Virus record (IMG/VR): IMGVR_UViG_3300035698_035366
Location: 232,120 to 296,119 of that record
Reading direction: 5' to 3' (one strand)
DNA from: a virus
DNA: 64,000 nucleotides
The notes under the pieces are model-generated. The model did not search any database, was not told the origin of the DNA, and saw only the letters and a program-made list of their open reading frames with translations. Every line of letters begins with the position of its first letter. Within the stretch, counting starts at the first letter, position 1. Shown here one piece after another: positions 15,406 to 33,365 of this stretch. Both the position numbers and the translations under genes were made by a program.

Positions 15406-15418
15406 CCAATAAAATAAT

Positions 15419-15491
15419 GGACCGGTAGCTCAGAGGCAGTAGCGACGGGCTCTTAACCCGTAGGTCGAGATTTCGAAATTCTCCCGGTTCA
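15419..15491 (+). tRNA. tRNA-Lys (CTT)
   Basis: Acceptor GGACCGG/CCGGTTC, anticodon arm ACGGG-CTCTTAA-CCCGT, T-loop TTCGAAA, discriminator A, CCA encoded. Uninterrupted paralogue of the insertion-bearing tRNA at 31395. Confidence 0.9.
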
Positions 15492-15545
15492 CCAAAAATA
15501 TTGACATTAAACATAGATATGTGTATAGTTTATAAATACAAAATT

Positions 15546-29409: not shown

Positions 29410-30519
29410 ATGCGTATTGGAGAAATCGTAACGGTAGTTGTTTTTGTGTTTTTCATGTGTATCTCATATGGAGCAAACGCAACTGTAATCGGACAGAGCG
29501 AAGGCTTGTCTTTTATCAAAGCCGCCAATAACGCTCGCAGCGGGACGACAATGGATTTCCGCCAGCTTCAGAATTTTTTTAGCCCGACACAGGGAAACGA
29601 TAACCAGATTTTGAGCCGCACCGAAGCTCTTCTGGCGGAACTTGATGACGATGACAGCATCAAGCGGATATCGGTGATCGCAACCTTAATGCTTGAATCA
29701 GGAAAGGTTTATGAAGCCAACATTACAAACGGCTATCAGCTTTCCGTTGATAGCACGGGTTGGGATTTTGGTCCCAACGGTTCGCCTGTTCATAAGGATT
29801 TCCGTAAAGTAACTGAACATGATGTGGTATCTAGCGGATACGCTGTAAGCGATAACGATCTCGTTGACGGTCTTTCTGGAGTTCGAAATTTCTCAGATCG
29901 CGCAATCAACGGTGTTTATACTGTAACAGTCGTGTTTACTGGTCGGGATACGAAATTCGATACATTTGAAATTAATGGGTCTAACGTGATCGTTCGAAAC
30001 GTTAGTGAGATATCTAACCGTTTGGATATGACGAAACCAGGAGATGAGAAACTGCACAAGTCAATTGCAATTCGAACTTGGACAGTTGTAACTGAAAATC
30101 AGCTTAATGTTGCTTTCCCGAAGTTTCCTGAAAATTCCGTATTGTCGGCAATCATTATTACTCCAGTCAACATGCTACAGGTAATTGACCGTCGAGTTGA
30201 GGATTTGATCGACTCTCGCAAGCCGTTCGTGTACAATGCTGGTGGGTTTGGATCACGTAATGGATTTGATTATGGCATATCCCGATATTTTGCATACTCT
30301 AAGGATGGGTTCATCTCTACCCGAGGCCATGGTGGTTGCTGTAGTATCCCAGGCGATGATGGGCCATACGACGTACCGGTGTTTGTTCCTGGCGGAGACG
30401 GTGACCCAACCGATGTTCCAGGTATTACCATTCCAGGTACCGTTCCGGAACCCGGTGCGCTTGCACTATTCGGAATCGGCATTATTGGATTATTAATTAC
30501 TCGTCGTAGGAAAAAATAA
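29410..30519 (+). CDS. PEP-CTERM secreted protein
   Basis: 369 residues. Signal peptide MRIGEIVTVVVFVFFMCISY...ANA at the start, a Ser/Asp-rich extracellular body, a glycine-rich stretch (GGCCSIPGDDG) and a C-terminal PEP-CTERM signal: VPEPGALALFGIGIIGLLIT plus RRRKK. In bacteria this tail is recognised by exosortase EpsH/XrtA-type systems, which anchor proteins in exopolysaccharide-producing Gram-negatives. Codons are GC-richer than in neighbours. Presence in a phage suggests a host with an exosortase and a recent host origin. Confidence 0.9.
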   Translation: MRIGEIVTVVVFVFFMCISYGANATVIGQSEGLSFIKAANNARSGTTMDFRQLQNFFSPTQGNDNQILSRTEALLAELDDDDSIKRISVIATLMLESGKVYEANITNGYQLSVDSTGWDFGPNGSPVHKDFRKVTEHDVVSSGYAVSDNDLVDGLSGVRNFSDRAINGVYTVTVVFTGRDTKFDTFEINGSNVIVRNVSEISNRLDMTKPGDEKLHKSIAIRTWTVVTENQLNVAFPKFPENSVLSAIIITPVNMLQVIDRRVEDLIDSRKPFVYNAGGFGSRNGFDYGISRYFAYSKDGFISTRGHGGCCSIPGDDGPYDVPVFVPGGDGDPTDVPGITIPGTVPEPGALALFGIGIIGLLITRRRKK

Positions 30520-31066: not shown

Positions 31067-31095
31067 TTGACATTATCTAACAACTCTGTTAGTAT
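31067..31095 (+). promoter_or_regulatory. Promoter with inverted repeat over the -10
   Basis: TTGACA (31067-31072), 17-bp spacer, TAGTAT (31090-31095). CTAAC (31078) and GTTAG (31088) form an inverted repeat overlapping the -10, a possible operator. Confidence 0.65.
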
Positions 31096-31204: not shown

Positions 31205-31287
31205 GGATCATGCAGCATAATCGGCAGGCTGGGCCGCCAAGGGACTTTTAACCCCTCGCTTAAAAGGTTCGATTCCTTCTTGATCCT
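31205..31287 (+). tRNA. tRNA-Lys (TTT), extended D-region
   Basis: Acceptor GGATCAT/TTGATCC (six pairs), anticodon loop CTTTTAA, T-loop TTCGATT, discriminator T, CCA encoded. D-region of ~27 nt as in the Lys gene at 15236. Confidence 0.75.
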
Positions 31288-31301
31288 CCAGATTAAATTC
31301 T

Positions 31302-31381
31302 GGACGGGTGACCCGAGTGGCGATGGGCCTGGACTCTTAATCCAGTATTATACACCGTGGGTTCGAATCCCACCTCGTCCA
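31302..31381 (+). tRNA. tRNA-Lys (CTT)
   Basis: Acceptor GGACGGG/CTCGTCC, anticodon arm CTGGA-CTCTTAA-TCCAG, T-loop TTCGAAT, discriminator A, CCA encoded; 13-nt variable region. Confidence 0.88.
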
Positions 31382-31394
31382 CCAGATATGTTAT

Positions 31395-31517
31395 GGACCG
31401 GTAGCTCAGAGGCAGAGCAGCGGGCTTTGGTAGAAAGGGTTTCAAGCCCATTAGAGTGCAAATCTCAAATCTACAAACCTAATCCGCGTGTCGAGATTTC
31501 GAAATTCTCCCGGTCTA
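31395..31517 (+). tRNA. tRNA-Lys with 51-nt anticodon-loop insertion
   Basis: Paralogue of 15419: acceptor GGACCGG/CCGGTCT, D-arm GCTC/GAGC, T-arm GAGAT-TTCGAAA-TTCTC. The anticodon stem GCGGG (31420-31424)/TCCGC (31483-31487) is intact, but the loop is 58 nt. Removing 31429-31479 leaves CTTTTAA, a standard Lys loop with TTT. The insert has GTAGA/TCTAC ends, a GGG/CCC hairpin and a GAG-TGCAAAT-CTC hairpin. CTA stands where CCA would be. Confidence 0.7.
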
Positions 31518-33075: not shown

Positions 33076-33365
33076 ATGGACTGAAGGTGGACGTATGCCC
33101 TGGGATTGAGTTATCATCAATTAAATCGACGCGTAGGTTTGTTGTTAGTTAGCCAATCAAAATCGGACAGAACCTGGCTTAACAGCCGAAAGGACTTAGG
33201 GGCATATTTTAGAGGCATCGGCGGGCGACTATCTTAAACGTGATAGCAAGTGCTGATCGAGCCCATCGCGCTCGATGGGGCCGGAAGCTAAAAGAGTCGG
33301 CAAAATGGAGCCAAGCTGTGGGAGTTAAATCTCACAGCCCAGATTCGTCCGAATGGACATGTTTT
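33076..33365 (+). ncRNA. Large structured RNA, unknown
   Basis: ~290 nt without a reading frame. Long-range ATGCCC/GGGCAT, ATCGAGC-7 nt-GCTCGAT, CTATC/GATAG, GCTGTG/ACAGC-type and GTCC-GAAT-GGAC hairpins; the last is followed by ATGTTTT, a weak terminator. No RNase P, tmRNA or group I signature recognised. Confidence 0.45.

Follow-up and report, generated by a model that had tools for sequence, protein, structure and literature searches.

Can a phage tRNA gene whose anticodon is split by an inserted segment still give rise to a decoding tRNA, and how would the insert be removed? The question is raised by positions 31395–31517 of the stretch of viral DNA analysed here (the window), which comprises the final 64 kb of the 296,119-base virus record IMGVR_UViG_3300035698_035366. 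The locus is a predicted tRNA-Lys(UUU) gene in which a tRNA-like insert separates nucleotides (nt) 35 and 36 of the anticodon. The insert is probably a removable intron, and related inserts interrupt tRNAs in other phages.

The interrupted tRNA-Lys gene

The outer tRNA has a fully paired acceptor stem (GGACCGG/CCGGTCT, 7/7 including G1–U72), a D stem GCTC/GAGC (4/4) and an anticodon stem GCGGG/TCCGC (5/5), which closes a loop of 58 nt. Its T stem is paired at 4/5 positions, with T–T at 53–61, and CCA is not encoded after the 3′ exon (31480–31517). Leaving out the 51 nt at 31429–31479 restores the loop CTTTTAA, and ARAGORN then calls tRNA-Lys(ttt); the unspliced locus receives no ARAGORN call and no Rfam match at the gathering or a permissive threshold. 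The coordinates and description in the original prediction, which was made from the DNA letters and their open reading frames, are correct on these grounds.

Aligned with a tRNA-Lys(CUU) at 15417–15496, the joined exons show 86% identity across 80 nt and a single gap, and it is this match that assigns the isotype as lysine. The paralogue had been put forward as the expected gene; it is indeed an uninterrupted Lys gene, but its anticodon is CUU and not UUU. Read by eye, the loop alone leaves the join ambiguous and would permit Arg CCU, Arg UCU, Lys UUU or Gln UUG. Lys UUU, with the insert at 31429–31479, was chosen because the paralogue, A73 and the family frame described below favour that join. 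A relaxed scan of the window revealed no other convincing gene of the interrupted type.

In the family frame, the window insert is paired at 5/7 acceptor and 4/5 T-stem positions, and its T-loop is TGCAAAT. The pairing of the core stem changes in concert between related inserts, reading GGTGA/TCACC at locus L142, GGAAC/GTTCC at L153 and GTCC/GGAC at L133. None of these inserts ends in NCCA; the corresponding bases are AACC in the window, AAGA in L142, AAAA in L153 and AAAT in L133. The folding energy of the hairpins predicted within the insert is individually non-significant (z −0.73 for the loop and −1.47 for the whole). Support comes from the related inserts and not from folding energy. The window insert is a reduced form, without CCA, of a nested tRNA-like family. 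Correspondingly, the idea of a nested tRNA-like module, one of three options first offered, is supported by the T-loop hairpin, the pseudo-acceptor stem and related full tRNA-like units that end in CCA.

A family of nested inserts in phage tRNA genes

Sequence comparison establishes a family of inserts with a nested tRNA frame, restored canonical tRNAs, co-varying stems and accompanying RNA ligase genes. A pattern with a D-arm and a T-arm 50–80 nt apart retrieved at least 120 stretches from viral_contigs, and insertions in the anticodon arms of phage tRNAs are therefore not rare. Patterns built on the T-loop of the window insert retrieved 13 and 30 stretches. By-eye reading parsed 11 of the 30 as anticodon-loop inserts, with L121 and L134 representing the same element. 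The ends of these inserts pair as an acceptor-like stem with four further nucleotides on its 3′ side, and the T-loop hairpin occupies the place of a T-arm, so that the frame runs from tRNA nt 1 to 76.

A nested scan combined an outer cloverleaf score of at least 19 of 21, a long loop, a canonical 7-nt loop on joining, comparison of insert nt 1–7 with nt 66–72, and a 4-nt tail. A nested acceptor paired at 7/7 positions and followed by a 4-nt tail was present in 20/123 long-loop cloverleaves, whereas shuffled inserts averaged 0.3 over 200 rounds and never exceeded 2; the window insert (5/7) lies outside these 20. The T-stem was paired 5/5 and contiguous with the acceptor strand in 17/20, and 15/20 ended in NCCA, as did 11/16 of the nested inserts that were not selected via a CCA pattern. 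Other tail lengths also scored (13 at tail 2 and 4 at tail 6), and these matches are read as register shifts of longer helices.

The two acceptor strands of one insert pair at 6.64 of 7 positions, compared with 3.31 for strands crossed between members (n = 22), and at least four standard pair types occur at every acceptor position across these 22 members. Furthermore, ARAGORN, run without its intron option, called the expected tRNA in 23/23 joined members and in 0/23 unspliced ones, the window included. The join was set by hand for the window, L133, L142 and L146 in the ARAGORN test and for L153 in the strand-pairing comparison; the 20/123 statistic excludes them. L066 was left out of the ARAGORN, strand-pairing, homologue and bulge–helix–bulge tests, and L155 and the duplicate L277 were left out of strand pairing. 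Uninterrupted homologues span the join in L131 (85.5% over 76 nt) and L121 (95% over 59 nt). Insertion occurs mostly after loop nt 3 or 4 (34/35 or 35/36), and thus within the anticodon. In other phages, related insertions recur in the anticodon loop with the exact site shifted by 1–3 nt, and not the unrelated insertions at other positions that would have refuted the original prediction.

The inserts differ in how much of a tRNA they contain. L022 and L277 carry a complete tRNA-Phe(GAA) inside a tRNA-Arg(UCU), and L074 carries a complete tRNA-Gly(UCC) with CCA inside a tRNA-Asn(GUU). Minihelix inserts of 44–49 nt, composed of an acceptor and a T-arm, are found in L024, L169, L121 and L129 and as one of two inserts in L034. 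The reduced type, to which the window, L142, Cr30 (L153, below) and L133 belong, has a 4–5-bp stem core, a short T-stem and A-A-A-N-N replacing N-CCA. The remaining inserts retain a D-arm and a shrunken anticodon arm. Outer isotypes among the 24 members include six Ile(UAU) and four Lys(UUU) (window, L067, L131 and L186), the others being Asn, Arg, Thr, Gln, Leu, Asp and Pro. Two members, L297 and L305, were found in genome bins assigned to bacteria, but these may be contigs of phages.

The 16-nt core GAGTGCAAATCTCAAA, together with the following 5 nt and an A, occurs in only five viral_contigs stretches, two of which are interrupted tRNAs, namely L142 (tRNA-Gln) and L153 (tRNA-Leu). L153 is 100% identical to the isolate Caulobacter phage Cr30, in which the tRNA lies unannotated between gp168 and gp169, at about 81134–81292 of NC_025422. 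Its spliced loop would read CTCAAAA and its insert would measure about 73 nt; Cr30 also has an Rnl1 match at G008:9950-10546. The restored anticodon agrees with the tRNA body in both cases (Leu/CAA in Cr30 and Gln/UUG in L142), the bodies having been assigned by features that we take to be those of tRNA-Gln and tRNA-Leu. As one member resides in Cr30 of Caulobacter crescentus, the family is open to experiment now.

The window phage encodes an Rnl1-type RNA ligase of 431 amino acids (G000:11088-12380; PF09511, E 2.5e-28; phrog_562, E 2.5e-70) and also an RNA_ligase-family protein of 219 amino acids. An RNA ligase was found in 11/11 nested-tRNA records of at least 80 kb, compared with 9/19 control records (one-sided p = 0.003) that were picked by size from tRNA-pattern matches and may themselves hold nested tRNAs. 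The controls have more tRNAs than the nested records (median 25 vs 14). A strong phrog_968 match was present in 8/11 nested records; in G004, G010 and G011 the Pfam ligase match alone fell below the cut-off, and phrog_968 settled the call. T4-type RNA ligases in jumbo phages are discussed in a review (PMC7824862).

Several candidates were rejected or set aside. L066 passes the nested test but probably by chance, and L155 fits the 4-nt tail only through a register shift. Three of the GAGTGCAAATCTCAAA stretches (L339–L341) contain no visible tRNA and look like chance matches. Among the 30 T-loop-pattern stretches, L143, L144, L145, L147, L154 and L157 resemble ordinary tRNAs in which the motif lies outside the anticodon loop, and L141 and L148–L150 were set aside unparsed. 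L132 and L136–L140, also set aside, are nearly the same tRNA-like gene; their long anticodon arm, which contains GGAGTGCAAATCTCC, was not parsed. The nested-scan algorithm found nothing in L156, L158 and L160. Most of 161 further pattern matches examined consist of a tRNA and then a 3′ tRNA fragment, with no outer 5′ half seen, and are not nested. At many of these loci a complete tRNA with CCA is followed within 14–19 bases by another T-arm and the 3′ part of a tRNA that has no 5′ half.

Proposed excision and its alternatives

For removal of the insert we favour, with a probability of roughly 0.5, a route through RNase P, 3′-processing and RNA ligase. The tRNA end-processing enzymes of the cell would handle the insert as if it were a tRNA, with RNase P cutting before insert nt 1 and RNase Z or another 3′-processing nuclease cutting after its 3′ end. 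The 5′ exon would be left with a 3′-OH and the 3′ exon with a 5′-phosphate, the tRNA fold would keep the exons together, and the resulting nick in the anticodon loop would be sealed by the phage Rnl1-type RNA ligase. An acceptor stem, a T-arm and RCCA together form a tRNA-like structure that RNase P cleaves at nt 1, and the leader keeps its 3′-OH; RNase Z and similar enzymes leave a 5′-phosphate on the trailer. An anticodon-loop nick with these termini is a substrate of T4-type RNA ligase and the kind of break that it repairs.

Several observations weigh against this route. Excision of the insert, like the choice of enzymes, is inferred from sequence. The window insert has a 5-bp stem core, a G1–A72 mismatch, a 3-bp T-stem and ACC for CCA, features that make it on paper a poor substrate for RNase P or RNase Z. 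Processing of this member, which lacks CCA and a full 7-bp stem, is likewise inferred, and several other family members have no CCA. Furthermore, 10/24 members were found through the T-loop motif of the window insert, the T–T in the outer T stem, where G53–C61 is usual, could be decay, and the ligase association could reflect phage lineage. Finally, the reduced subclass would be explained equally well by a dedicated nuclease that targets the conserved T-loop hairpin.

Such a nuclease, of phage or host origin, or else a small self-cleaving RNA, could remove the intron before ligation, a scheme that we consider somewhat unlikely. In the reduced subclass A-A-A-N-N stands in place of NCCA, and GAGTGCAAATCTCAAA is common to three of the four members, a degree of sequence conservation beyond what RNase P would require of a plain substrate; however, the three reduced members other than the window were selected by the T-loop motif. 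Also against this scheme, most members of the family have the general geometry of a tRNA, free sequence and NCCA, and they include ordinary tRNAs, and no Rfam family matched at the window site.

It is less probable still that the locus is a disrupted pseudogene, in which a tRNA or a fragment of one recombined into the anticodon loop and is never removed. The T-stem mismatch of the outer tRNA would fit decay of this kind, and tRNA fragments are common in such phages, most of the 161 further matches examined having no outer 5′ half. Against this stand the nt 1–76 frame, the exact restoration of the anticodon loops with no base missing or extra, the covariation between phages and the 23/23 restored calls. 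The suggestion in the original prediction that the gene is merely disrupted is unlikely, given that tRNAs of other phages carry the same insert core with compensatory changes.

PrrC-like anticodon nucleases cut tRNA-Lys, and the unspliced RNA might itself be the working form, either as a decoy for host anticodon nucleases or as the source of an inner tRNA-like RNA. The outer tRNA is Lys(UUU) in 4/24 members, and the inner units of L022/L277 and L074 are tRNAs. The varied outer isotypes (Ile, Asn, Arg, Thr, Gln, Leu, Asp and Pro) mean that no single nuclease target explains the members, and the outer exons retain perfect decoding loops, so that this explanation appears very improbable. An archaeal-style bulge–helix–bulge intron, cut by EndA and sealed by RtcB, is extremely improbable as far as sequence can show: archaeal and eukaryal introns of this type are likewise short, lie in the anticodon loop, leave a canonical tRNA on removal and need a ligase, but the phage insertion sites are within the anticodon, mainly at 34/35 and 35/36 and not 37/38, the insert is itself tRNA-like, the motif (two 3-nt bulges around a 4-bp helix) was found at the junction in 0/24 members, and the window phage genome has no match to EndA (PF01974) or RtcB (PF01139).

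The proposed processing by tRNA end-maturation enzymes and a phage ligase has partial parallels in known systems. To our knowledge, known tRNA introns are either group I or group II ribozymes or need the archaeal/eukaryal splicing endonuclease. Group I introns of bacterial tRNA genes are likewise found within the anticodon loop or adjacent to it, in tRNAs of bacterial type, but the phage inserts are only 44–116 nt long, and no Rfam group I covariance match was found at the window site with gathering or permissive thresholds. In T4, tRNA is repaired by Rnl1 together with polynucleotide kinase; here too a phage ligase acts on an anticodon-loop break, and its domain, PF09511, is also present in the window phage, but the known role of Rnl1 is the repair of host-inflicted damage and not intron splicing. 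In dicistronic transcripts of tRNA and small nucleolar RNA, RNase Z or RNase P frees the RNA next to the tRNA. The tRNA unit similarly serves there as a processing signal that releases a neighbouring RNA, but the RNAs on either side of it are not ligated to each other. According to a 2014 review (PMC3984707), every phage intron known at that time was in a protein-coding gene, although phages have many tRNA genes.

The nested inserts look like a new kind of tRNA intron, and searches of the open-licence literature found neither tRNAs nested in the anticodon loops of other tRNAs nor phage introns of this type. We tentatively raise the possibility of a further mode of tRNA splicing in phages, in which a nested tRNA or tRNA-like intron would recruit RNase P and 3′-processing enzymes as its endonuclease and a phage ligase would join the exons. 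If this is true, universal tRNA-end processing would provide a new and very simple splicing route, phage RNA ligases would gain a constructive role beyond repair, one transcript would give two tRNAs in some phages, and current tools would be missing phage tRNA genes. The nesting may have originated in a repair event, in which a ligase that mends anticodon loops cut by a nuclease trapped a mature tRNA between the two halves.

Surroundings of the gene and a second insert family

The record encodes a T4-type major capsid protein together with rIIA and rIIB, and all 31 of its Rfam tRNA matches fall inside the window. Features of the locus and its surroundings are collected in Table 1. The promoter call is weak, as the region contains seven sigma-70-like sites, compared with 3.9 in shuffles.

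Table 1. Positions in the window of the interrupted tRNA-Lys gene, the predicted parts of its insert and related features.
Feature	Position	Strand	Basis or remark
5′ exon of tRNA-Lys(UUU)	31395–31428	+	Acceptor 5′ strand, D arm, anticodon stem 5′ strand, loop nt 32–35 (CTTT)
Whole 51-nt insert, a reduced nested tRNA-like unit framed from nt 1 to 76	31429–31479	+	Same frame as L142, L153 (Cr30) and L133
Pseudo-acceptor 5′ strand GGTAGAA	31429–31435	+	5-bp core GTAGA (31430–31434) pairs with TCTAC (31470–31474)
Middle hairpin GGG-TTTCAAG-CCC	31437–31449	+	Predicted fold; similar hairpin GGGTATCAAAGCCC in L133
Pseudo T-arm GAG-TGCAAAT-CTC, T-loop-like heptaloop	31454–31466	+	GAGTGCAAATCTCAAA identical in L142 and Cr30
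Pseudo-acceptor 3′ strand ATCTACA, N73 = A (31476), then ACC replacing CCA	31469–31479	+	Family frame
3′ exon of tRNA-Lys(UUU)	31480–31517	+	Loop nt 36–38 (TAA), anticodon stem 3′ strand, variable loop, T arm, acceptor 3′ strand, A73
Neighbouring uninterrupted tRNA-Lys(CUU)	31302–31384	+	ARAGORN and Rfam
Uninterrupted paralogue tRNA-Lys(CUU)	15419–15494	+	ARAGORN, comparison with joined exons
Sigma-70-like promoter, candidate for the small tRNA cluster	31067–31095	+	10/12 match, weak

A further Lys-like tRNA with the loop CTTTTAA, and with extra bases between the D arm and the anticodon arm, lies at 31210–31296. It has no ARAGORN or Rfam call and, if functional, would be another Lys(UUU). Between tRNA genes at 33090–33350, about 250 bases without long open reading frames have the look of a structured RNA, and a permissive scan of 12000–36500 gave no Rfam match there. 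Elsewhere in the record (G000:C1:81447-82324), extra short matches to the major capsid family lie downstream of the full gene and possibly represent a broken second copy. No close relatives of the window phage were found in viral_contigs through the protein at 29410 or rIIA, or through the pattern search built on the insert, and megablast of 26–50 kb returned a match to a tRNA only.

A second, different family of inserts (~40–54 nt) occurs in the 5′ strand of the anticodon stem of phage tRNAs, after nt 28 or 29, at loci that include L013, L019, L023, L027, L041, L048, L084, L087, L097, L104, L106 and L127. Joining after nt 28/29 gives a perfect stem and loop in 26/78 pattern matches, compared with 0.25 (maximum 2) in shuffles. 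An ACWGCR-type motif is present in 17/26 of these stem-type inserts, often as ACAGCAA after a GNNN-loop hairpin, and others end in GRGTTAY. An Rfam scan of 12 stem-type loci found them covered by tRNA models only. At L027, L062, L019 and L055, several tRNAs of 112–127 nt lie close together in one phage, as if stem-type inserts had multiplied.
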